The notes under the pieces are model-generated. The model saw only the letters and a program-made list of their open reading frames with translations, was not told where the DNA came from and ran no database searches. The position numbers and the translations under genes are program-made. From NCBI GenBank assembly GCA_017459485.1, contig JAFUCW010000433.1, forward strand, positions 1 to 12,042: 12,042 nt of DNA, written 5' to 3'. This DNA is from Eggerthellaceae bacterium (GTDB lineage Bacteria; Actinomycetota; Coriobacteriia; Coriobacteriales; Eggerthellaceae). This document shows, piece by piece, positions 1,050 to 11,486 of this stretch. Numbering within the stretch: the stretch's first letter is position 1; each line of letters opens with the position of its first letter.

Positions 1050-2792
1050 TTACAGGCTCCATTGGGCACTTGTTGACTGCAACTGGCGCATGCGGGCGAA
1101 GGTACTGTTCTCGCGCGCCAGCAGGTCTGCCGGGGCGCCCTCTTCGATGACCTTGCCGTCTGCCAGCACAACAATCTTGTCGGCGGCTTCGACCGTGCGC
1201 ATGCGGTGTGCGATAACGAGCACCGTCTTGCCCGCAAGCAAACGCGACAGAGCCCCTTGGACCTTTGTCTCGTTTTCCACGTCGAGTGAGGCCGTGGCTT
1301 CGTCGAGCAGCACGATGGGCGCATTTTTCAGCAGCGCACGCGCAATCGAGATGCGCTGGCGTTCGCCGCCGGAAAGCTTCGCGCCGTTTTCGCCGATGGG
1401 CGTGTCGTAGCCCTGCGGGAGCTTGTTCACGAACTCGTCGCAGTTGGCTGCCGCAGCAGCGGCAAGCACTTCTTCGTCGGTGGCACCAGCCTTGCCCAGG
1501 CGGATGTTGGCCATAACGGTGTCGTCGAAGAGCGTAACGTCCTGGAACACCATGGAGTAGTCGGTCAGGAGCACCTCGGGGTCGACCGTGGCAATATCCA
1601 CACCACCCACTTCGATGGTGCCCTCGGTGGCGTCCCACAGGCGCGCGGCCAGGCGGGCGCAGGTGCTCTTGCCCGAACCGCTTGGGCCCACGAGCGCCGT
1701 CACTTCGCCTTCCTTGGCGGTGAAGTTCACGCCACGCAGGACCTGCTCGTTGTCGTAGGCGAAGCCAACGTTCTTGAACACGATGTCGTGGTCGGCAGGC
1801 GCAAAAGTTTCCGCGCCTTCAGCAATGGGCGGGTCGTAGATTTCCATCAGGCGGTTGGCCGACACCTGCGAGAGGAACACTTCGGCAATCATGGTTAGGC
1901 TCTGATCGAAGGGCGCGTAGATGCGCGTGATCACCAGCAGGAACAAGAACAGCATCATGAAGTCGATCTGGCCGGACACGATCGGGTTGGCGCCCACGAG
2001 GATGGTGGTTGCCACGCCCAGACGCATGATAACGCTTGCGCCGTTCACGAACAGACCCGTGGCCAGCTCGCCCTTGATCATAGTGCGCTCGTGCGTATCG
2101 ATTTTGGCGTTGAGTGCGTCCAGGTAGCGCTGCTCCTGGTTGGTGGCGCGAATCTCGCGGATGTTTTCGAGGGTTTCCTGGATGCCGTCGGACACCTCAA
2201 GCGCTGCCGCCTTCGTTTTTTCGGCGTTGCGCTCGGACATGCGGCGGCTGCCGAACAGCAGCAGGAAGGCCACGGGTACGCCCCACAAACATGCAATGGC
2301 CAGCCTCCAGTCCATGACAAAAAGCATGACCGCGATGATTGCCGTAGAGATGTAGCTGCCGTAGAGGTAGCCCAGCACGTGTGACCACACATGCTCCATG
2401 CGATTCACGTCGCCCATGACAGTTTCGGTCAAGTCGGCCAGGTCGCGCTTGCCAAAGAAGCTCAAGGGCAGCTTGCGCAGGCGCTCGGCCAGGCCCACGC
2501 GCATGGTCTTCACTTCCTCGTAGACCAGGCCGTAGGTTGCAACATACTGCTGCAAGTGCGTGACGAAGGACAGTACCACAAAGGCAAGCGTGAGCAGGCT
2601 GAAGATGGCGATGCTGGGAAGTTCGGCGCCGTCGGTAAGCGTGTTCATAAACTGCATCATGAGCATATAGAGAATACCCATACCCATCATAACAACCAAG
2701 TTCACGATAATGGTCCACAGGGTACCTTTTTTGGTGTTGGCTACGCCTTGGTCAGAGAGGGCGTATTTCCTCTGGAACTTTTCTCCAAACAT
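1050..2792 (-). CDS. ABC exporter half-transporter (membrane + ATPase), second of pair
   Basis: A 580-residue type IV ABC half-transporter. Residues about 20-310 hold the six-helix exporter membrane domain; the C-terminal nucleotide-binding domain has Walker A at 369-377 (GPSGSGKST), Q-loop Gln417, signature LSGGE at 473-477, Walker B VLLDEATASLD near 494-504 and H-loop His519. All ATP-site motifs look canonical. The ATG at 2792 sits directly after the TAA of the upstream exporter, with a good GGAGGTG ribosome site inside that gene's end, so the two are co-translated and very likely form a heterodimer. The family (IrtAB/YbtPQ-like exporters fused to or linked with metal-chelate systems) and the ECF remnants next door suggest handling of an iron chelate, heme or similar compound. 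The substrate cannot be read from the sequence. Confidence 0.93.
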   Translation of the reverse strand: MFGEKFQRKYALSDQGVANTKKGTLWTIIVNLVVMMGMGILYMLMMQFMNTLTDGAELPSIAIFSLLTLAFVVLSFVTHLQQYVATYGLVYEEVKTMRVGLAERLRKLPLSFFGKRDLADLTETVMGDVNRMEHVWSHVLGYLYGSYISTAIIAVMLFVMDWRLAIACLWGVPVAFLLLFGSRRMSERNAEKTKAAALEVSDGIQETLENIREIRATNQEQRYLDALNAKIDTHERTMIKGELATGLFVNGASVIMRLGVATTILVGANPIVSGQIDFMMLFLFLLVITRIYAPFDQSLTMIAEVFLSQVSANRLMEIYDPPIAEGAETFAPADHDIVFKNVGFAYDNEQVLRGVNFTAKEGEVTALVGPSGSGKSTCARLAARLWDATEGTIEVGGVDIATVDPEVLLTDYSMVFQDVTLFDDTVMANIRLGKAGATDEEVLAAAAAANCDEFVNKLPQGYDTPIGENGAKLSGGERQRISIARALLKNAPIVLLDEATASLDVENETKVQGALSRLLAGKTVLVIAHRMRTVEAADKIVVLADGKVIEEGAPADLLARENSTFARMRQLQSTSAQWSL

Positions 2793-4595
2793 TTACGCCA
2801 CCTCCCCATCACTCGAAATTCGCCAGGTGACGGCTTTGTTGTAGTCGGCCCACATGCGGGCGTAGAGGCCACCAGCAGCCACGAGCTGCTCATGCGTGCC
2901 TTCTTCGACCACGCTGCCATCGTCGAGCACGACAATCTTGTCGGCGCCCGTTACCGTGGACAGGCGATGCGCAATCATGATGACCGTGCGCCCCTGCGTA
3001 AGCGTAGCGAAGGCCTTCTGAATAAGCGCTTCGTTTTCGGGGTCGGCAAAGGCGGTTGCTTCGTCAAGCACCACGATAGGTGCGTCTTTGAGGATGGCAC
3101 GGGCCAGGGCCACGCGCTGCTGTTCGCCACCGGAAAGGTAGGTACCCTCCGTGCCGATAACGGTGTCGATGCCGTCGGGCAATTTGGCGATAATGTCGTC
3201 GCACTGCGCCGCAGCCAGGGCCGCTTCCACTTCTTCACGCGTTGCTTCGGGGCGGGCCGCACGCACGTTTTCAAGAATCGAAGTCTTGAACAGGCGGTTG
3301 TTTTGGAACACGAAAGCCACCTGGTCCATGAGCACGTGGGGGTCCATATTGCGCACGTCCACGCCACCCACTTCCACAGCGCCTGACGTGGTATCCCAGA
3401 AGCGTGGGATTAGGCTGGCCGCCGTGGTCTTGCCGCCACCAGATGGCCCCACAAGCGCAACCGTCTGACCAGGCTCAACCACAAAAGAAACGTTCTTCAG
3501 CGCGTCTTCTGTAGCACCTTCGTAGGTGAAGGACACATCCTTGAACTCTACCTTGTTGCCCTGCGGGGCTTGCGGGTTTGCCGCAATTTCAAGCGTGGGA
3601 GCACCCGTAACTTGGCGGATGCGGTTTAAGGCCGTGTTGGCCAGCATCATGCCACTTGCTGCGAACATGATTTTCGCAAGCGCCGTGGAAATGATGGCGG
3701 AAAAAACTGCGTAGAACGCAAAGTTGGTCACGAAGCCCGCGAAGTCGCCTGAGGCGAGCGCACCCGGGGCCAAAAACAGCACGAGCGGCACCAAGAACAC
3801 AAAGGCGCCTTCGGTGAAAGTGAGATTGACCGACTGGGGCACGCGGCAGACGTCACCTTGGTAGTAGCCTGCCTTCGCGCTGTAATCTTCGATGGCCTCC
3901 TTGAAGGCCTTGAAGGAATTCACCGTCTGCTGGAATACCTTCACCACGGGGATGCCGCGCACGTATTCGGTGCCCGCTTTGCTCATGCGGTCCTGCGCAG
4001 CCTGGTATTCCTGCATGAGGCCCGCGTTCTTGCCGCCCATCATGGTAAACATGGCCACGACCGAGATGACGGCTGCCAGCAGGCATGCCGCGCCCATGCG
4101 CCAGTCGAACACGAGCATGAGCACCACCATGCCAATGAACATGGCAACGGTGCCCACGATGTCTGCTAGGTTGTGTGCAAGTAGCGTCTCGGTTTCGGCG
4201 GAGGCGCCGTCGAGGCGGTTGCGGATCAGGCCGCTTGCGTTGTTGTCGAAGTAACCGAGCGGCGTGTTCATCAGGTGCGCCATACCTTGTTTGCGGATGT
4301 TGGAAGCCGTACGGAAGGCCGCCAAGTGCGTGCACATGAGCGCTGCAAAGTACACAAGGATGCCCGCCACCGCAAAGGCGAAGGCCATCCAGCCATAGCT
4401 TCCCACGTTGGTCGCCGCGCTCCAGTTGGGCGCCACGGCAATCAGGTCACGCGCCACCAACCAGATGCAGATGTAGGGCGCCATGCCCAGCAGCATGGAA
4501 ATGGCTGAAAGTGCTAGGCCGACAAAGGTCAGGCCCCGGCGCTCGCCTGTGTAATGCAGAAGCTCGCCCAAGTCACTCTGTTTCTTTTCTGCCAC
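2793..4595 (-). CDS. ABC exporter half-transporter (membrane + ATPase), first of pair
   Basis: A 600-residue ABC half-transporter and first gene of the leftward operon. The N-terminal about 330 residues form the exporter membrane domain; the ATPase domain has Walker A at 383-391 (GPSGGGKTT), signature LSGGE at 487-491, Walker B VVLDE at 508-512 and H-loop His533. The D-loop reads AFAD rather than the usual SALD, a variant I associate with siderophore-type transporters such as IrtA and YbtP; this is memory, not a search. The start is GTG at 4595, chosen because AGAGGA lies a few bases upstream and the reading AEKKQSD is a typical exporter N terminus. It ends with TAA touching the next ATG. The promoter region upstream carries a palindrome suggesting control by a metal-dependent repressor. 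Together with the following gene it probably forms a heterodimeric exporter or chelate transporter in the cytoplasmic membrane. Confidence 0.92.
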   Translation of the reverse strand: MAEKKQSDLGELLHYTGERRGLTFVGLALSAISMLLGMAPYICIWLVARDLIAVAPNWSAATNVGSYGWMAFAFAVAGILVYFAALMCTHLAAFRTASNIRKQGMAHLMNTPLGYFDNNASGLIRNRLDGASAETETLLAHNLADIVGTVAMFIGMVVLMLVFDWRMGAACLLAAVISVVAMFTMMGGKNAGLMQEYQAAQDRMSKAGTEYVRGIPVVKVFQQTVNSFKAFKEAIEDYSAKAGYYQGDVCRVPQSVNLTFTEGAFVFLVPLVLFLAPGALASGDFAGFVTNFAFYAVFSAIISTALAKIMFAASGMMLANTALNRIRQVTGAPTLEIAANPQAPQGNKVEFKDVSFTYEGATEDALKNVSFVVEPGQTVALVGPSGGGKTTAASLIPRFWDTTSGAVEVGGVDVRNMDPHVLMDQVAFVFQNNRLFKTSILENVRAARPEATREEVEAALAAAQCDDIIAKLPDGIDTVIGTEGTYLSGGEQQRVALARAILKDAPIVVLDEATAFADPENEALIQKAFATLTQGRTVIMIAHRLSTVTGADKIVVLDDGSVVEEGTHEQLVAAGGLYARMWADYNKAVTWRISSDGEVA

Positions 4596-4951: not shown

Positions 4952-5833
4952 TCAGCCCATTTGCCCTTTCAGTATCTCAATGAACCAGTCCACGATGGAT
5001 GCTCGCCCTCTTTCGCGCGTGAAAACACCGTATGGGACGGTCTCGGACTCCGCAAGCTCGACGTCGCGGATGCCCTTGCTCGGCATGAGGAGCGGCGAGG
5101 GCACGATCGCGTATGCCAGGCCGGCGCTCACGAGACTGCACGCCTCCGCAACGGAGGAGCACATGAAAACCTCCTGGCCGGCATGAACGGGCGTGACATG
5201 GCGCCCGCCATCATGGAAGCTCCTTCGGCGCAGGTCTGCGGGGGCGCAAATCGCCTGTGGCATGCTGGCGAGCGCATCGAAGGAGACCTTCCCCCGCGAG
5301 ACCAGGCGATTCCTGGCCGGAAGCACGCAGCGCAGCGTCGCATCCCCCAGCTTCTCGAAGGCGACGCCCTCGGCCTCTGGGAAGAGGCCCTGCATCCCCA
5401 GCGCAGCGTCGAGCTTTCCGTGCGCGACCGCATTGACGCAGTCGTCCTGCAGACCGCAGCGCAAGACCGGGTGGACGCCTAATCTTTCAGCCCGCATCGT
5501 TCGCCAAGCCTTCGAGAGTATCACAAGCTCGACCGTATCCGTGTAACCGACCCGGATGGTGTTTGCAAGCTCGACACGCTGGCGCCCAGCCCTGTCGGCC
5601 GCGCCGCGCATGAGCGCGAGCATCTCTACGGCATCGGGCATGAAACTCTCGCCGGCCGGCGTGAGAGAGACCGACCGCGTGGTCCGCTCGAGCAGCTTCA
5701 CCCCCAGTTCGCCCTCCAGCGACTTGACCTGCTTGCTCACGGCAGGCTGCGTCATGTTCAGTCTGGATGCGGCTTGCGCGAAGCTGAGCGTCGACGCGAC
5801 CTCGATGAAGCACTCGATCTGAACGGTGTTCAC
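4952..5833 (-). CDS. LysR-type transcriptional regulator
   Basis: A 293-residue protein, the usual length for the family. The N-terminal winged helix-turn-helix is clear: SFAQAASRLNMTQPAVSKQV at about residues 17-36, followed by LEGELGVKLLERTTRSVSLT. Residues about 90-290 form the two-lobed effector-binding domain (IRVGYTDTVELV through VPYGVFTRERG). The start is GTG at 5833 with GTGAGG seven bases upstream on the minus strand. It is transcribed away from the Cys-repeat peptide operon and shares a 151-base intergenic region with it, the standard layout for a LysR protein controlling its divergent neighbour and itself. A dyad at 5862-5882 is a likely binding site. The effector is unknown; it could be the peptide product or a redox-active compound handled by the nitroreductases. 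Confidence 0.93.
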   Translation of the reverse strand: MNTVQIECFIEVASTLSFAQAASRLNMTQPAVSKQVKSLEGELGVKLLERTTRSVSLTPAGESFMPDAVEMLALMRGAADRAGRQRVELANTIRVGYTDTVELVILSKAWRTMRAERLGVHPVLRCGLQDDCVNAVAHGKLDAALGMQGLFPEAEGVAFEKLGDATLRCVLPARNRLVSRGKVSFDALASMPQAICAPADLRRRSFHDGGRHVTPVHAGQEVFMCSSVAEACSLVSAGLAYAIVPSPLLMPSKGIRDVELAESETVPYGVFTRERGRASIVDWFIEILKGQMG

Positions 5834-5984: not shown

Positions 5985-6185
5985 ATGGCACTTTCCGACA
6001 TCGCTTCTTGGACTGACGAAGAGAAACCGGCCGCGTGCGGAGCTGCTTGCGGGGCAGCCGAGGAGAAGCCGGCGGCATGTGGAGCGGCCGAAGAGGCTCC
6101 TGCGGCATGTGGAGCGGCCGAGGAAGCGCCTGCTGCCTGCGGCGCGGCCGAAGAGGCTCCTGCGGCGTGCGGAGCGGCCGAGTAA
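5985..6185 (+). CDS. ACGX-type Cys-repeat peptide (putative RiPP precursor)
   Basis: A 66-residue peptide: a short leader (MALSDIASWTDEEKP, 1-15), then a repeat region running to the last residue. Cys are at 18, 22, 32, 42, 52 and 62; each is in an A-C-G-A context and five are in a C-x3-E spacing (CGAAE); Cys18 is followed by Cys22 in place of Glu. The start ATG has AGAGGAG seven bases upstream. The composition (only Ala, Gly, Cys, Glu, Pro, Lys after residue 12) is unlike an ordinary protein. I recognise the motif as that of 'ACGX-repeat' peptides paired with a dedicated radical SAM/SPASM enzyme, which is the next gene. C-x3-D/E spacing is also the substrate pattern of thioether-forming enzymes such as PapB (Cys to Asp/Glu side-chain carbon), so Cys-Glu thioether links are a reasonable guess. 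Neither the modification nor the role is known to me; no peptidase or dedicated exporter is adjacent. Confidence 0.88.
   Translation: MALSDIASWTDEEKPAACGAACGAAEEKPAACGAAEEAPAACGAAEEAPAACGAAEEAPAACGAAE
6030..6182 (+). repeat. Coding tandem repeats, 30-bp units of the Cys peptide
   Basis: Three full 30-bp units (6072-6101, 6102-6131, 6132-6161) each encode AACGAAEEAP; a final partial unit (6162-6182) encodes AACGAAE, and an earlier variant (6030-6071) encodes AACGAACGAAEEKP. Full units differ from the first by three or four bases, all silent, so the amino-acid repeat is held constant while the DNA has drifted. Confidence 0.9.
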
Positions 6186-6209
6186 GGCCGGTTCGAACGG
6201 CATGCTGGA

Positions 6210-6247
6210 GGCCCGGGGAAGCCGCGCGCTTCGCCGGGCCTTTTCTT
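6210..6247 (+). terminator. Internal terminator/attenuator between peptide and radical SAM genes
   Basis: Bases 6210-6222 pair with 6228-6240 as a 13-bp GC-rich stem (GGCCCGG outer, GAAGC inner) with one G-G mismatch and a CGCGC loop, followed by TTTTCTT. It starts 25 bases after the peptide stop, and its T tract abuts the ribosome site of the next gene. Partial read-through would give far more peptide transcript than enzyme transcript, a common arrangement for RiPP precursors. Confidence 0.78.
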
Positions 6248-6266
6248 GAAAGGAGGCAGGAGGGCC

Positions 6267-7289
6267 GTGGAGTTCGCGTTCCAATGGCATATCACCGATG
6301 ATTGTGATCAGCGCTGCAAGCACTGCTACATCTACGCCGAGGACGGCTCGAAGCACGTCGACACGATGAGCTGGGAGCAGATCGAGGCCACGTGGGCGAA
6401 CATCCGCGACTTCTGCGCCACGTTCAAGCGCACGCCGCATCCCTACATAACGGGCGGCGACCCGATCCTGCACCCGGACTTCTGGCGGCTCATGGAACTT
6501 ATGCACGACGAGGGCGTCACCTTCACGCTCATGGGCAACCCGTTCCATCTGACCGACGAGGTCTGCGCCCGTCTGAAGGAGGCGGGATGTCGCAAGTACC
6601 AACTCTCACTCGACGGCATGCGCGAAACGCACGACTGGTTCCGCAAGCCGGGCTCCTTCGATGCGACGCTCGACGCCATCGGCACGATCAATCGATCGGG
6701 GATGAAGTCGGTCGTCATGTCGACCGTCTCCGCCGAGAACATCGACGAGATTCCCGACCTCATCGACGCGGTGGTGGAGCGCGAGGTCGGCATCTTCGCC
6801 TTCGGGCGCTACGTGCCGAGCGGGGGCGGTCTGGACGCGGGGGTCGAGCCCTTGCGCTACCGGAAACTGCTCGACACCTGCCACAAGAAGTACACCGCCT
6901 ACAGGCAAGCGGGATGCAAGACCCATTTCAGCCGTAAGGACCATTTGTGGGCCCTCTACGACTGGGAAGAGGGCCGCTTCGAGATACCCGAGGACGCAGT
7001 CCCCGGCAAAGTGTACGGGGGTTGCAACTGCGGCGTGTGCCACCTTACCATCACACCCGCCGGCCAGGTGCTCGCCTGCAGGCGCGTGCCCGACTCCCCC
7101 GTGGGAGACATAGCCCGCGATCGCCTCGCCGACATCTGGACGGGGCCGATGGAGGACTACCGCGACTTTACGCGCTTCGAGAAGTGCGCGGAATGCGAGA
7201 TTATGCCATGGTGCCGTGGGTGCCCTGCGGTCGCCAAGGGGACAAATGGAAGCTTTTATTCCCCCGACCCGCAATGCTGGAAGGAGTGA
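6267..7289 (+). CDS. Radical SAM/SPASM peptide maturase, ACGX system
   Basis: A 340-residue radical SAM enzyme counted from GTG 6267, chosen because AGGAGG ends four bases before it; an upstream in-frame TTG at 6246 lies before that site and would make the ribosome site coding. The S-adenosylmethionine [4Fe-4S] motif CxxxCxxC is at 13, 17 and 20 (CDQRCKHCY), with GGDP at 63-66 in place of the usual GGEP. The C-terminal SPASM domain has Cys at 253, 255, 258, 271, 307, 310, 316, 319 and 337, including G-x4-C and CxxC-x5-CxxC patterns, enough for two auxiliary iron-sulfur clusters. It follows the Cys-repeat peptide and matches what I remember of the NCBI family 'radical SAM/SPASM domain protein, ACGX system'. 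The likely job is post-translational modification of that peptide in the cytosol; a Cys thioether bond is the leading guess. Its TGA overlaps the ribosome site region of the following gene, showing translational linkage. Confidence 0.92.
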   Translation: MEFAFQWHITDDCDQRCKHCYIYAEDGSKHVDTMSWEQIEATWANIRDFCATFKRTPHPYITGGDPILHPDFWRLMELMHDEGVTFTLMGNPFHLTDEVCARLKEAGCRKYQLSLDGMRETHDWFRKPGSFDATLDAIGTINRSGMKSVVMSTVSAENIDEIPDLIDAVVEREVGIFAFGRYVPSGGGLDAGVEPLRYRKLLDTCHKKYTAYRQAGCKTHFSRKDHLWALYDWEEGRFEIPEDAVPGKVYGGCNCGVCHLTITPAGQVLACRRVPDSPVGDIARDRLADIWTGPMEDYRDFTRFEKCAECEIMPWCRGCPAVAKGTNGSFYSPDPQCWKE

Positions 7290-7295
7290 GCGGCG

Positions 7296-8288
7296 ATGAT
7301 TCCTAAAGCCATGCGCGCGCTTAAGATAGACCGCATCACAACTGGCGAAGAAGCGCTTTTGGCGGAGATTCCCGTCCCCGCCGCGAAGCCGGGCTGGGCG
7401 CTCGTGAAGGTAGAGGCGTTCGGCCTGAACAACGCCGAGAAGTCCGTGAGGCTCCTCGAGATCGGGTCCCCGTGGATAGCCCCGCAGATCGTCCCGGGCA
7501 TCGAGTGCGCGGGTACCGTGGCCGACAGCTCCGACACCGACCTGGCGGACGGCGAGCGCGTCATCACCTGCATGGGCGGCATGGGCCGCGAATTCGACGG
7601 CTCGTACGCCGAATACGCGCTGCTGCCCCGCAGGAACATCTTCCGCGTGCCCGAGCGCATCGACTGGAGCTGGGCCGAACTCGGGGCCTTCCCCGAGACC
7701 TACCTCACAGCCTGGGGCAGCCTTTCCGAAAGCCTGCGGCTCGAATCGGGCGACACGCTGCTCGTGCGCGGCGCGACCTGCGGTCTCGGTTACGCCGCCA
7801 TCCAGCTTGCAAAGGCGCTCGACGTCTACGTAATCGCGACCACGCACCGCGAGCAGAAGCTGCAGCTACTGCTCGATGCGGGCGCCGATAAAGCCGTGCT
7901 CGACGAGGGGCGTCTCGCCGCCACGCGGACCGAGTCCGCGAAGGTCTCGGGCGCCAACAAAGTGCTCGACCTCATCGGTGTGCGCGACCTGCCCGACACG
8001 ATGCGCTGCTGCGCGAAGGGCGGCATCGTCTGCACCTCAGGCCAGCTCGGCAAGGCCTACTCGTGGAAGAGCTTCGACCCGATCAAAGACATCCCGAACG
8101 GCGTGTGCCTGACCGGGTTCTTCAGCAACTACCCCACGCAGGAGCTCTTCGACGGGCTGTTCTCGTTCATGAGCGACCATGCCATCAGGCCCATCTACGC
8201 ACAGGAGTACGACTTCTGTGACCTACGTGAAGCGCTCGTACGACAAGATGAGGGCACGGGCGGCAAGCTCGTTGTCGTGCACGGGTAG
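7296..8288 (+). CDS. MDR-family oxidoreductase (quinone reductase-like, zinc-free)
   Basis: A 330-residue medium-chain dehydrogenase/reductase. The N-terminal GroES-like catalytic domain (about 1-125) contains VPGIECAGTV near 67-76; the Rossmann domain carries GATCGLGYAAIQLAKA at 159-174 for NAD(P)H. The Cys/His ligands of the catalytic zinc and the four-Cys structural zinc loop of true alcohol dehydrogenases are absent, so it belongs with the NAD(P)H:quinone reductase/enoyl reductase branch. The ATG has AAGGAG overlapping the previous stop codon, and the next gene starts seven bases after its end, so it is firmly within the operon. Substrate unknown. Its presence next to a peptide maturase recalls mycofactocin loci, where dehydrogenases depend on a peptide-derived redox carrier, but this is only an analogy. 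Confidence 0.88.
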   Translation: MIPKAMRALKIDRITTGEEALLAEIPVPAAKPGWALVKVEAFGLNNAEKSVRLLEIGSPWIAPQIVPGIECAGTVADSSDTDLADGERVITCMGGMGREFDGSYAEYALLPRRNIFRVPERIDWSWAELGAFPETYLTAWGSLSESLRLESGDTLLVRGATCGLGYAAIQLAKALDVYVIATTHREQKLQLLLDAGADKAVLDEGRLAATRTESAKVSGANKVLDLIGVRDLPDTMRCCAKGGIVCTSGQLGKAYSWKSFDPIKDIPNGVCLTGFFSNYPTQELFDGLFSFMSDHAIRPIYAQEYDFCDLREALVRQDEGTGGKLVVVHG

Positions 8289-8295
8289 GCGCGCC

Positions 8296-9192
8296 ATGGG
8301 AGCTGAAAGGACAGCGCGTTTCGCAGCCGACGCGACCAAGTGCATCCGATGCGGACGATGCGTCGCCGTGTGCACGGGCATGGTGCTGGAACAGCAGGGG
8401 GACGACCCGCCGCGAATGCTGCCGTTCGAGCGCTACGGCTGGCGCGGATGCTGGAGATGCGAGCACTGCCTTGCCGTGTGTCCTACGGGCGCCATCACGA
8501 TATTCGGGAAGCGCCCCGAGGGCTCGCTTCCGCCCGCGCCTCCAGAGACCGGCGAGTACCTCGAGCGCCTCGTCGCCAACCGGCGCTCGTGCCGCCGTTA
8601 CCTCGACGAGAACGTCGACCCTGCTATCGTCAGCAGCATCCTCGCCGCTATGCAGAACGCGCCCGCCGGGGGGAACTCGCAGACGACCGAGTACACCGTC
8701 GTCGACGACAGGGATCGCATACGCGCGATACGGGACGTCGCCTATGCGGCCATGGAGGAGGCAGCCGCCCACGGGCGCTACACATCGAGCTTCGACGACT
8801 TCTACTATGCGAAGATGAAGCAGTCCGAGGAGACCGTGCGCAAGGGCGATATGCTCTTCTGCGGGGCGCCCCACCTGTTCGTGGCGCATGCTAAGGCGAC
8901 GGGGCGCTGGGCCGCCGACATCGCAGTGAACTGCAATCTGGCAACGGCATACTTCGAGCTGCTCGCGAACGCCCACGGACTCGGCACCGTCATCATGAGT
9001 TACCCGTCGGATGTTGTCCGCGAGCTCGCGCCAGAAGCGCGCGAGATGCTTGGCATACCAGCCGACCACTACATGAAGCTGCTCGTGGGCTTCGGCTATC
9101 CGGAAGTCCCGTATGCGCGCGGGGTGCAGAAGGACCGCCGCAAGGTCCATCGCTGGTCTGAACAGGCGAAGGGGCAGCTGAGCCTGCTATAG
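8296..9192 (+). CDS. Ferredoxin-nitroreductase fusion (2x[4Fe-4S] + FMN domain)
   Basis: A 298-residue two-part protein. Residues 16-62 hold two bacterial ferredoxin motifs: C16-C19-C22-C26 (CIRCGRCVAVC) and C52-C55-C58-C62 (CWRCEHCLAVCP). From about residue 85 the nitroreductase-like FMN domain begins, with NRRSCRRY at 95-102 for the flavin phosphate and NAPAGGNSQ near 127. Such fusions are common in strict anaerobes and pass electrons from ferredoxin clusters to FMN. The ATG at 8296 is seven bases after the preceding stop; the frame is open further upstream but that stretch overlaps the MDR gene and lacks a ribosome site. The next gene follows after nine bases. The substrate is not readable; it may reduce nitro compounds, quinones or the modified peptide. 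Confidence 0.9.
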   Translation: MGAERTARFAADATKCIRCGRCVAVCTGMVLEQQGDDPPRMLPFERYGWRGCWRCEHCLAVCPTGAITIFGKRPEGSLPPAPPETGEYLERLVANRRSCRRYLDENVDPAIVSSILAAMQNAPAGGNSQTTEYTVVDDRDRIRAIRDVAYAAMEEAAAHGRYTSSFDDFYYAKMKQSEETVRKGDMLFCGAPHLFVAHAKATGRWAADIAVNCNLATAYFELLANAHGLGTVIMSYPSDVVRELAPEAREMLGIPADHYMKLLVGFGYPEVPYARGVQKDRRKVHRWSEQAKGQLSLL

Positions 9193-9201
9193 GAGGATAG
9201 A

Positions 9202-9780
9202 ATGCAATATGCGAACGAGACCATACGCACACTGTTCGAGAAGCACACGATCCGAAAATACCTGCCTGATCCCGTGGACCGAACGGCGCTTGAGACCATC
9301 GTGCAGGCTGGCCTTCGCGCGCCCAGTTCGGGCGGGACGCAAGGCCCTGTGCTTCTCGTGTGCGAGGATCGCGGTACGAACCTCGCGCTCGGGCGCCTGA
9401 GCAAGTTGCTCTACGACGAAGGGGCGTACCCGGTGTCGAGCGCGCAACCCTCCATCGCAGACGACGATACGATAGATGACGGTTTCTACGGCGCGCCTGC
9501 GATGGTGCACTGTTTCACCCCGCGCGACTACCGCTACTCGCCCTTCGACGGCTCGATGGCGGCGGCCAACATGATGATCGCAGCCTGGTCGCTGGGGGTG
9601 GGAAGCTGCTTCGTCAGCCGCGCCGAGCGCCTTTTCGAGGTGGCTTGGGCTCGCGAATGGGCGCGCAAGCAGGGCGTGAGCGACGACTGGGAAGGCTGCT
9701 TCCATCTGTGTCTGGGCTACCCCTCGGATGACTCATGGACCCCGAAACCTCTCTATCCGAACCGCTTGTTATGGTGTTAG
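9202..9780 (+). CDS. Nitroreductase-family FMN oxidoreductase
   Basis: A 192-residue protein with the nitroreductase fold signature: HTIRKYLPDPVD at 15-26 (FMN phosphate-binding Arg/Lys), RAPSSGGTQ at 39-47, and AAWSLGVGSCFVSR in the second half where the flavin-binding GxG element of the family sits. The ATG at 9202 has a strong AGGAGG nine to eleven bases upstream, touching the previous stop. It is a single-domain relative of the preceding fusion, and the two could work as a pair or on the same substrate. A 46-base gap with no obvious promoter separates it from the sirtuin gene. Confidence 0.9.
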   Translation: MQYANETIRTLFEKHTIRKYLPDPVDRTALETIVQAGLRAPSSGGTQGPVLLVCEDRGTNLALGRLSKLLYDEGAYPVSSAQPSIADDDTIDDGFYGAPAMVHCFTPRDYRYSPFDGSMAAANMMIAAWSLGVGSCFVSRAERLFEVAWAREWARKQGVSDDWEGCFHLCLGYPSDDSWTPKPLYPNRLLWC

Positions 9781-9826
9781 AGCGGAATTACCCAGGTGGT
9801 TTCTGACAAGGCGCAGGAGGCGTATC

Positions 9827-10687
9827 ATGTCTGACATGGATTTCGAAAACGGACTTCAGCAGTTGCGCAGAGCCATCGACGAGGCGGATGCCGTCGTGGT
9901 CGGTGCGGGAGCCGGGCTCTCTACCTCGGCGGGCTTCGTATACTCTGGCGAGCGCTTCGAGCGGCTGTTCGGCGACTTCGCCGCCAAGTATGGCTTCCGC
10001 GACATGTATTCGGCGGGTTTCTACCCTTACAAGACGCCCGAGGAGCTCTGGTCGTACTGGAGCCGCTACATCTGGCACAACCGCTACGAACCATCACCGA
10101 AGGACACCTACGGCAAGCTGTTGCGCCTGCTGGATGGCAAGGACTTCTTCGTGATCACTACCAACGTCGACCACCAGTTCCAGCTGGCTGGCTTTCCCAA
10201 AGAGCGGCTGTTCTACACGCAAGGCGACTACGGCCTGTGGCAATGCAGCGTGCCATGCCATAATGCGACCTACGATAACTACGAGACGGTGACGCGCATG
10301 GTCGAGGAGCAGCGCGACATGCGCGTGCCGACCGAGCTCGTGCCGCACTGTCCCGTGTGCGGCAAACCCATGGCCATGAACCTGCGAGCCGATGACTCCT
10401 TTGTGGAGGACGAAGGTTGGCATGCGGCATCCAAACGCTATCAGGACTTCCTCGATGCGCATGCGCGCGGCAAGGTGCTCTACTTGGAACTGGGCGTGGG
10501 CGGGAACACGCCCGTCATCATCAAGTACCCGTTCTGGCGTTTCGCATATGCCAACCCCGACGCTGCCTACGCGTGCGTGAACCTCGGCGAGACGTTTGCG
10601 CCTGCGGAAATCCGTGACAAATCCATCCTCGTCGATGCCGATATCGACCGCGTAATCAACGGCTTGCTGGAAGACGCGGGAAGGTAG
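9827..10687 (+). CDS. SirTM-type sirtuin (putative protein ADP-ribosyltransferase)
   Basis: A 286-residue Sir2-fold protein. GAGAGLSTSAGF at 26-37 is the NAD-binding motif, TTNVDHQF at 111-118 corresponds to the TQNID motif, and C140/C144 with C175/C178 are the zinc ligands. The catalytic His of deacetylating sirtuins (normally in an HG pair ahead of the zinc Cys) is Gln132 (YTQGDYG). In the microbial SirTM class (class M), which transfers ADP-ribose to proteins instead of deacetylating, I recall the same His-to-Gln change. The ATG has CAGGAGG six bases upstream. The macrodomain gene that typically removes the mark starts six bases after the stop. Classic SirTM operons also encode a lipoylated GcvH-like carrier and a lipoate ligase; neither is seen here, so the target is open. 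Confidence 0.88.
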   Translation: MSDMDFENGLQQLRRAIDEADAVVVGAGAGLSTSAGFVYSGERFERLFGDFAAKYGFRDMYSAGFYPYKTPEELWSYWSRYIWHNRYEPSPKDTYGKLLRLLDGKDFFVITTNVDHQFQLAGFPKERLFYTQGDYGLWQCSVPCHNATYDNYETVTRMVEEQRDMRVPTELVPHCPVCGKPMAMNLRADDSFVEDEGWHAASKRYQDFLDAHARGKVLYLELGVGGNTPVIIKYPFWRFAYANPDAAYACVNLGETFAPAEIRDKSILVDADIDRVINGLLEDAGR

Positions 10688-10692
10688 CCGAT

Positions 10693-10814
10693 ATGGAGCA
10701 GGTGCGCAAGCTGCAGCTTCTGGAATCGCTGGTGGGGCGCTCTGCGCCTAGCGGGGCGATGGAGCTCCAGAGACACACGATGCAGACGATCTTTGGGCGG
10801 CGTTCCGCGCGCTC
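10693..10814 (+). pseudogene. Displaced N terminus of the macrodomain gene (frameshift)
   Basis: ATG 10693 opens a frame (MEQVRKLQLLESLVGRSAPSG) that hits TGA at 10816-10818 after off-frame sequence. From about 10755 the coding signal moves to another frame (GDGAPETHDADDLWAAFRAL) that runs straight into the macrodomain body but is closed upstream by TAG at 10749. One extra G in the G run at 10753-10756 would join both halves into a single frame with the expected helical N-terminal region of SirTM-linked macrodomain proteins. It is either a real one-base deletion or a homopolymer sequencing error. Confidence 0.7.
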
Positions 10815-11486
10815 GTGAACATGCGTCCGCCGTGGCCCGCAGACGAAGCGTTCCTCGCGGAGCAGGACGAGTTGCTGCAGGGACTCATCGCCGAGGCGGG
10901 TATCCACAGCGTCGACGAGACCACCCCCTCGCCAGCGGATGGACGCATGCGCCTGTGGCGCGGCAACATCACGACGCTTTCCGCCGACGCCATCGTGAAC
11001 GCGGCGAACTCGCAGATGCTCGGCTGCTGGGCACCCGACCACCATTGCATCGACAACGCCATCCACACCTATGCCGGCGTGCAGCTGCGCGCGGAATGCG
11101 CTCGCATCATGGAGCTGCAGGGCCACGAGGAACCGACAGGCGTAGCGAAGATCACCGGCGCCCACAACCTGCCTTGCAAGCGCATCCTCCACACGGTCGG
11201 CCCCATCGCGAACGAGCATCCGACCGACCTGCACTGCGAGCAGCTGGCGTCATGCTACACGAGTTGCCTCGATGTGGCGGCATCGGAGAGCCTGCGATCG
11301 ATCGCGTTCTGCTGCATCAGCACCGGCGTGTTCGGCTTCCCGCAAGAAGAGGCGGCGGGAATCGCCGTGCGCGCCGTGCGGGAGTGGCTCGACGCAGCCG
11401 AAGCCGAGATCTCCGTCGTCTTCAACGTGTTCGGCGAGAAGGACGAGCGGATATACCGCAGTTTGCTCGGCATCCGACATGCGTAG
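10815..11486 (+). CDS. Macrodomain protein, SirTM-linked Zn-binding type (5' frameshifted)
   Basis: The body of a macrodomain ADP-ribosyl hydrolase; the start shown is GTG 10815, with ATG 10821 equally possible, but the true start is probably ATG 10693 before a frameshift (see the preceding entry). Counting from GTG, residues 57-71 contain ADAIVNAANSQMLGC, the ADP-ribose-binding strand and loop; residues 71-84 (CWAPDHHCIDNAIH) replace the usual glycine-rich loop and carry Cys71, His76 or His77 and Cys78, the Cys/His pattern of zinc-dependent macrodomains associated with SirTM; ISTGVFGFP at 168-176 is the phosphate-binding loop. MRPPWPADEAFLAEQDELL near the N terminus is also typical of these paired proteins. 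It should reverse the ADP-ribosylation made by the upstream sirtuin. No ribosome site is visible at 10815, so output from the broken gene may be low. Confidence 0.82.
   Translation: MNMRPPWPADEAFLAEQDELLQGLIAEAGIHSVDETTPSPADGRMRLWRGNITTLSADAIVNAANSQMLGCWAPDHHCIDNAIHTYAGVQLRAECARIMELQGHEEPTGVAKITGAHNLPCKRILHTVGPIANEHPTDLHCEQLASCYTSCLDVAASESLRSIAFCCISTGVFGFPQEEAAGIAVRAVREWLDAAEAEISVVFNVFGEKDERIYRSLLGIRHA

Follow-up and report, generated by a model that had tools for sequence, protein, structure and literature searches.

The window analyzed here is a stretch of 12,042 nucleotides, contig JAFUCW010000433.1 of assembly GCA_017459485.1, from an Eggerthellaceae metagenome-assembled genome (MAG) of roe deer jejunum; a copy of it in a second genome (G799) differs at a few positions. 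It encodes a Cys-repeat precursor peptide of the ACGX type followed by a radical S-adenosylmethionine (SAM) enzyme with a SPASM region. Judged from the gene content, this pair appears to belong to one redox/ADP-ribosylation operon spanning 5985-11486. In Clostridia and Eggerthellaceae the pair is repeatedly accompanied by flavin or Zn oxidoreductases, a sirtuin of class M (SirTM) and a Zn-macrodomain. The features of the pair itself are as follows.

5985..6185, + strand: ACGX-repeat precursor peptide, 66 amino acids (TIGR04341, 30.0 bits, cut-off 28)
6036..6185, + strand: repeat core, with Cys codons at 6036, 6048, 6078, 6108, 6138 and 6168, and the stop codon
6207..6243, + strand: stem-loop between the peptide and enzyme genes (minimum free energy -36.3 kcal/mol, z -2.47)
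6267..7289, + strand: radical SAM/SPASM enzyme of the ACGX system, 340 amino acids from GTG (TIGR04340, PF04055, PF13186)

The peptide frame runs from an ATG at 5985, preceded by the purine-rich GAGAGGAG, to a stop at 6185. Its six Cys residues, at positions 18, 22, 32, 42, 52 and 62 (a span of 45), are arranged as C-G-x-x-E or C-G-x-x-C units, with Glu at +4 of Cys 22, 32, 42, 52 and 62 and Cys22 at +4 of Cys18. Residues 1-17 may form a short leader, with a putative boundary. A longer open frame of 98 amino acids scores 27.4 bits against TIGR04341, under the cut-off of 28, and a Pfam search with the frame from 5985 returned no family. The enzyme scores 554.2 bits against TIGR04340 (cut-off 400). 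As peptide and enzyme both exceed the cut-offs of their models, the pair is not a chance arrangement. The enzyme frame, which stops at 7289, is open from a TTG at 6246 that could serve as a start; the GTG at 6267 is most likely the true one since it sits behind AAAGGAGG. The SPASM region contains nine Cys. The initial annotation had described the 66-residue peptide with six Cys over 45 residues, five of them in C-x3-E spacing, together with a radical SAM enzyme carrying nine C-terminal SPASM Cys, and had linked the pair to the ACGX families; the frames, residues and profile scores bear it out on all of these points. Its span of 5985..7289 placed both genes correctly but ended too early, as the feature runs on to 11486. 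The remaining genes are listed below.

7296..8288, + strand: Zn-alcohol dehydrogenase (ADH)/quinone-oxidoreductase family protein (PF08240, PF00107)
8293..9192, + strand: ferredoxin-nitroreductase fusion (PF00881, Fer4; frame open from 8179, putative start at 8293)
9202..9780, + strand: nitroreductase (PF00881)
9827..10687, + strand: class M sirtuin, SirTM, predicted protein ADP-ribosyltransferase (match to SpySirTM 5a3a; frame open from 9728, start putative)
10815..11486, + strand: Zn-macrodomain, predicted protein-ADP-ribose hydrolase (NF003163, 306 bits, cut-off 272)
4952..5833, - strand: LysR-type regulator, divergent (PF00126, PF03466)

The best PDB match of the SIR2 protein is SpySirTM (5a3a, 252.9 bits), and equivalents of N118, Q137 and R192 are kept, residues that matter in SirTM according to Rack et al. 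(PMC4518038). With SpySirTM as its nearest relative, a Gln replacing the catalytic His, and the Asn and Arg in place, the protein is a class M sirtuin, predicted to act as a protein ADP-ribosyltransferase rather than a deacylase. All 71 aligned sequences, 51 of them ACGX-linked, keep the three residues. For the macrodomain the best PDB matches are 8rsi, 5kiv and 8rsl; 5kiv and 8rsl are SauMacro, and a Cx4HxC loop, NAAN and an Asp/His dyad are given as Zn-macrodomain features in PMC11490716. The zinc loop, NAAN and the dyad are all present in the window protein, and the Zn-macrodomain motif is kept in each of the 36 ACGX-linked sequences tested. The open reading frame at 10815-11486 lacks about 40 N-terminal residues of the family, the profile match beginning at 42, and the missing part, by eye, seems to lie upstream in another frame, at 10693-10818. 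A frameshift or an assembly error in the macrodomain gene is therefore likely. Elsewhere in the window's genome (G000:C295:4444-5187) there is another SirTM match, a more distant one at 47% identity. A further, very divergent SirTM lineage (branch length 2.83) is present in the ACGX operons of L062 (10023-10985) and L081; the L062 protein was not detected by Pfam SIR2.

The setting recurs among relatives of the enzyme, in a comparison covering the best 80 of 582 confirmed loci, mainly from gut Clostridia. Downstream genes were counted by tblastn in the 58 of 80 loci that extend at least 5 kb past the enzyme. SirTM lies on the same strand within 6.5 kb in 39 of them and the macrodomain in 32; at least one of the two is present in 41 and both in 30. 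A nitroreductase match lies downstream in 37 of the 58 loci and an ADH match in 17. The ferredoxin-nitroreductase is matched in four, and a PNPOx-ferredoxin protein is commoner (36/58). Four ACGX enzymes (P0102, P0107, P0111 and L025) carry a fused nitroreductase domain; the window nitroreductase at 9202..9780 is 31% identical over 180 amino acids to the domain in P0102. Where upstream sequence reaches at least 1.5 kb (69 loci), an HxlR regulator is encoded upstream on the opposite strand in 59. The window has LysR in that place, as does G863 among its relatives, and this LysR is likely the regulator of the operon.

Secreted ribosomally synthesized and post-translationally modified peptides (RiPPs) mostly have transporter or protease genes. 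When the genes around the 80 enzymes were clustered (L001-L003 being left out of the neighbor counts), no transporter or protease was recognized at a fixed place among the 14 clusters found in at least eight of the 80 loci. Clusters of 8 loci that fall outside the operon pattern are taken to be a MATE-like transporter (in scattered places) and a histidine-kinase-like protein. A recurrent SirTM, macrodomain and oxidoreductase operon in which no fixed transporter or protease was recognized argues against a stand-alone polycyclic product; the initial annotation had not noticed this setting. It suggests that the peptide works inside the cell as a redox carrier and is not an antibiotic for export. 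Beyond the LysR gene, the window also encodes two ABC exporter-type proteins (1050-4595, - strand), which match no recurrent ACGX neighbor cluster.

The association of ACGX with SirTM extends to whole genomes. A sample of 341 genomes was drawn from the class of G396 (Frisingicoccus, Clostridia); 15 of them have the enzyme above its cut-off and 59 have a SirTM match (E <= 1e-30). All 15 ACGX genomes have a SirTM match versus 44 of the 326 others (Fisher p 7e-13, uncorrected for relatedness), and 12 of the 15 carry both genes on the same contig and strand, with start-to-start distances below 5 kb. Among 40 ACGX genomes taken from the 80 loci, hand-picked mainly for long contigs, 36 have a SirTM match. 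GcvH is the domain of GcvH-L, the one SirTM target known so far. A match to it was found in eight of the 40, never on a SirTM contig, and not in the other 32. In the window's family, 10 of the 11 carriers of the enzyme have a SirTM match; GcvH (PF01597, E <= 1e-5) was not found in any of the 11, including the window's own genome (72% complete). SirTM is adjacent to ACGX in the window, in G799 with its nearly identical contig, and in G785, G856, G859 and G874. It lies on another contig in G877 and G878, where the ACGX contig is cut short.

Of 73 loci with at least 700 bp available upstream, 70 encode, no more than 900 nt before the enzyme, a peptide that contains at least two CGxx[D/E/C] units. 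An additional one (L008) has a shorter ACGX peptide; at L009 and L021 no such precursor was seen upstream. Two relatives that score under the cut-off, G546 and G614, have neither a SirTM match nor an ACGX peptide nearby. Outside the window's family, precursors are usually built of AACGSACGAGDKPEEKP units, each a C-x3-C pair with Asp four residues after the second Cys. In the 61 precursors there (405 Cys; the frame-mixed candidates L058 and L059 left out), the residue at +4 is Asp for 200 Cys, Glu for 9, Cys for 180 and another residue for 16, so that D, E or C accounts for 389 of 405. Gly follows the Cys in 404 of the 405, and in 451 of 453 over both groups. In nine Eggerthellaceae precursors, with that on the window's own contig (L004) included and the truncated peptide of G856 and the identical one of G799 not counted, the +4 residue is D, E or C for all 48 Cys (45 D/E, 3 C). 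Their linkers have diverged, with GCGSADP, ACGASD or ACGTADPAP units, and the Ala before Cys to which ACGX owes its name precedes just 26 of the 48. As linkers and Ala drift yet the +4 residue is kept, the conserved constraint on the precursor sequences is taken to be C-G-x-x-[D/E] or C-G-x-x-C. The early emphasis on C-x3-D/E spacing is thereby upheld as a family constraint. The CxxxC at residues 18 and 22, which had been set apart from the rest, instead resembles the common pattern, CxxxC followed by CxxxD being the usual unit outside Eggerthellaceae.

In a phylum-wide sample the enzyme was found in one of 396 genomes, which raised horizontal transfer or misbinning as an explanation for its presence in the window. 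Across the family, carriers number 11 among 138 genomes and come from 7 of 48 genera. Three carriers consist of one or two contigs, and this distribution argues against misbinning. Two remnants were also observed. At L140 an ACGX precursor remnant (7488-7625, - strand) stands beside PNPOx-ferredoxin, macrodomain and SirTM genes in a stretch devoid of the ACGX enzyme. At L167, in G858, a precursor is present, the enzyme frame contains TGA and TAG, and a fragment is all that is left of SirTM, as in a decaying copy.

On the chemistry of the enzyme, its substrate pattern and its profile scores point in different directions. In PapA/PapB the C-x3-D/E pattern marks Cys residues joined to the C-beta of Asp or the C-gamma of Glu (PMC9413430), and the spacing in the ACGX peptides fits such a Cys-Asp/Glu thioether. 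By sequence the enzyme is not of the PapB type suggested initially, scoring 54.1 bits against the PapB model NF047865 (cut-off 340). Its second-best NCBIfam model is SbtM, a thio(seleno)oxazole maturase (TIGR04082), at 168.5 bits (cut-off 350), a model with about 195 extra N-terminal positions relative to the enzyme. The SbtM product is a thiooxazole formed with loss of four H, according to a review. Across 348 genomes of the phylum of G396, no SbtM match exceeded the cut-off and two were weaker. One of these, L178, is another ACGX locus. At the other, L177 (6729-8426), an SbtM-like radical SAM gene precedes one for a Cys-rich, long-leader peptide; by eye, we take the genes around it to be for selenium metabolism. 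Because the L177 precursor is so unlike the ACGX peptide, the substrate pattern is given more weight than the profile score. The AlphaFold2 (AF2) model of the enzyme (mean predicted local distance difference test, pLDDT, 76.6) has a SPASM peptide-maturase fold that begins at the radical SAM part, leaving no room for an N-terminal RRE domain. A fold search with it returned PqqE, SkfB, anSME, SuiB and one more, presumably CteB, within about 1.5 Z, and so does not choose between chemistries. On balance a thioether is given slightly less than an even chance and a thiooxazole is quite unlikely; some other product takes the remaining share.

The stem-loop between the two genes also has counterparts elsewhere. 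Over 62 loci, folding energy 3' of the precursor stop has a median z of -3.0, with z <= -2 in 46. A T-rich tail accompanies z <= -2 in 16 of the 62, and the window is not among these. A strict hairpin rule, after which folding energy was adopted as the measure, picked out 7 of the 62 loci, against 0.4 expected, but not the hairpin of the window; a consensus scan for promoters and terminators performed no better than on shuffled sequences and did not flag it. The stem-loop may act as a partial terminator or as an mRNA stabilizer, and might raise peptide mRNA above enzyme mRNA.

Given the above, the reading we favor, at a probability of about 0.42, is that of an intracellular, enzyme-matured redox peptide under a SirTM/macrodomain switch within one redox/ADP-ribosylation operon. 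Owing to the stem-loop, the peptide would be made in excess over the enzyme. The enzyme would then act on the Cys in every C-G-x-x-D/E unit, the likeliest outcome being a Cys-Asp/Glu thioether, while the Cys of C-x3-C pairs would be otherwise modified or left free. Retained in the cell, the product could serve as a sulfur-based redox carrier for the nitroreductase, ADH or ferredoxin partners. SirTM would ADP-ribosylate the matured peptide and the Zn-macrodomain remove the ADP-ribose, an on/off switch like that of lipoyl-GcvH-L, and LysR or HxlR may control the operon. A peptide beside SirTM in genomes mostly lacking a GcvH match is a candidate new SirTM target. More specifically, and more tentatively, the peptide may be a ribosomally made redox cofactor built by a radical SAM enzyme, the first SirTM target beyond GcvH-L, with matured C-x3-D/E units that ADP-ribosylation and its removal would turn off and on, and may replace lipoyl-GcvH-L in gut anaerobes that mostly lack GcvH. 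If true, this would give the ACGX family its first physiological context and join RiPP chemistry with reversible ADP-ribosylation.

Several observations weigh against this reading. Neither SirTM nor a macrodomain is nearby in 17 of the 58 loci, and 4 of the 40 hand-picked genomes have no SirTM match. Conversely, a SirTM match without ACGX occurs in 44 of 326 genomes, in a comparison that has no phylogeny control and includes many incomplete MAGs, and SirTM/macrodomain pairs without the ACGX enzyme exist, with 20 such loci examined. ACGX and SirTM lie about 270 kb apart in G863, the enzyme frame of G858 has stops beside what is only a SirTM fragment, and G817, a single-contig genome of 99% completeness, carries ACGX but gives no SirTM match. 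ACGX-linked members do not group apart in the SirTM tree (16 changes against a shuffled mean of 17.7, with 97 of 500 shuffles reaching a value as low), and the idea that they form their own clade was rejected on this test. For the chemistry, the +4 residue is G, A, N or Q for 16 of 405 Cys, and the profile score of the enzyme is nearer SbtM than PapB. In sum, ACGX and SirTM are strongly yet not obligatorily linked, and in this group SirTM must act on other targets as well. A role of the Asp/Glu at +4 purely as ADP-ribose acceptor is weakened by G817, whose peptide has Asp at +4 of all five Cys; since it keeps them without a SirTM match, the Asp is not there only for ADP-ribosylation.

Some of these observations would be expected if ACGX were only co-regulated within a redox-stress regulon, with SirTM and the macrodomain acting on another protein, for example the PNPOx-ferredoxin protein. 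Several of the macrodomain-SirTM pairs without the ACGX enzyme (20 loci examined, out of 44 genomes) are accompanied by HxlR and PNPOx-ferredoxin, and both the unseparated SirTM tree and G817 accord with such a regulon. It remains a doubtful explanation, as it does not readily account for co-occurrence in 15 of 15 versus 44 of 326 genomes, for the closeness of the two genes on one strand in 12 of these 15 genomes, or for a redox partner that varies among nitroreductase, ADH and PNPOx-ferredoxin at ACGX loci with SirTM or macrodomain. A ranthipeptide pathway, in which PapB-like Cys-Glu/Asp thioether loops form a stand-alone and perhaps secreted product and the downstream genes are incidental, shares the substrate spacing with PapA. 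It is unlikely given the low PapB score, the recurrence of the downstream genes, the lack of a recognized exporter or protease among the conserved neighbors and the presence, in precursors from outside the window's family, of Cys rather than D/E at +4 for 180 of the 405 Cys.

The enzyme could instead be SbtM-like and convert each Cys to a 5-thiooxazole (-4 H), so that the product would be the anaerobes' equivalent of captophorin/bufferin, repeat peptides that bind metal. Among other NCBIfam models SbtM scores best, Cys is almost always followed by Gly, and captophorin EGKCG repeats carry thiooxazoles and bind copper (PMC12668002). This is very unlikely, since the SbtM cut-off is not reached and the model's longer N-terminal part has no equivalent here, the precursor at L177 (itself under that cut-off) is quite different, the Asp/Glu at +4 is left unexplained, and no metal-transport family was recognized among the conserved neighbors. 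SIR2 proteins also occur in defense systems, so that an anti-phage or toxin-like NAD-consuming system with the peptide as trigger or effector was considered. PADLOC finds nothing for the SIR2, macrodomain, peptide, oxidoreductase or LysR proteins and matches the enzyme to viperin no more than weakly (48.2 and 32.5 bits), and the SIR2 residues are those of SirTM. A role in phage defense was rejected on these grounds, and such a system in general is highly improbable.

Among known systems, the closest is the NCBIfam ACGX system (TIGR04340 rSAM_ACGX and TIGR04341 target_ACGX), with both models exceeded and the genes adjacent, peptide first. TIGR04340 is of the hypoth_equivalog type and named only for the system. 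These models cover the enzyme and peptide, however, and not the wider operon, and some Eggerthellaceae precursors differ in having GCGSADP units with no Ala before Cys. The pair is therefore a new member of a bioinformatically named, uncharacterised family, and what is new is its ADP-ribosylation operon setting without GcvH. In the open-licence literature searched, no paper on the ACGX family and none joining SirTM with radical SAM was found, and PMC9062424 makes no mention of ACG repeats or TIGR04340. The PapA/PapB freyrasin system (a ranthipeptide) is similar in its repeated C-x3-D/E units and SPASM enzyme, but the PapB model gives 54 bits here, ACGX relatives have many C-x3-C pairs, and the setting is one of SirTM and macrodomain. 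The SbtM maturase is likewise a Cys-modifying SPASM enzyme; the window enzyme is under its cut-off, however, and without the model's long N-terminal part, and the precursor of the SbtM-like locus L177 differs from the ACGX peptide.

The extended SirTM operon of staphylococci and streptococci encodes GcvH-L, LplA2, SirTM, a Zn-macrodomain, OYE and LLM. There, LplA2 lipoylates GcvH-L, SirTM ADP-ribosylates it, probably at Asp27, and the macrodomain reverses the modification, with flavin oxidoreductases encoded nearby. The operon described here is alike in the N/Q/R residues of SirTM, the Cx4HxC of the Zn-macrodomain, the nearby flavin oxidoreductases and a small carrier-like partner. It differs in having a radical SAM enzyme and a Cys-repeat peptide, with no GcvH found in the 11 carriers of the window's family or in 32 of 40 other ACGX genomes, and a nitroreductase, ADH and PNPOx-ferredoxin instead of OYE and LLM. 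LplA2 was not recognized among the 14 neighbor clusters (at least eight loci each), for which no search aimed at LplA was made. Under the favored reading, the ACGX enzyme and peptide would stand in for LplA2 and GcvH-L, while SirTM, the macrodomain and the oxidoreductases would stay.

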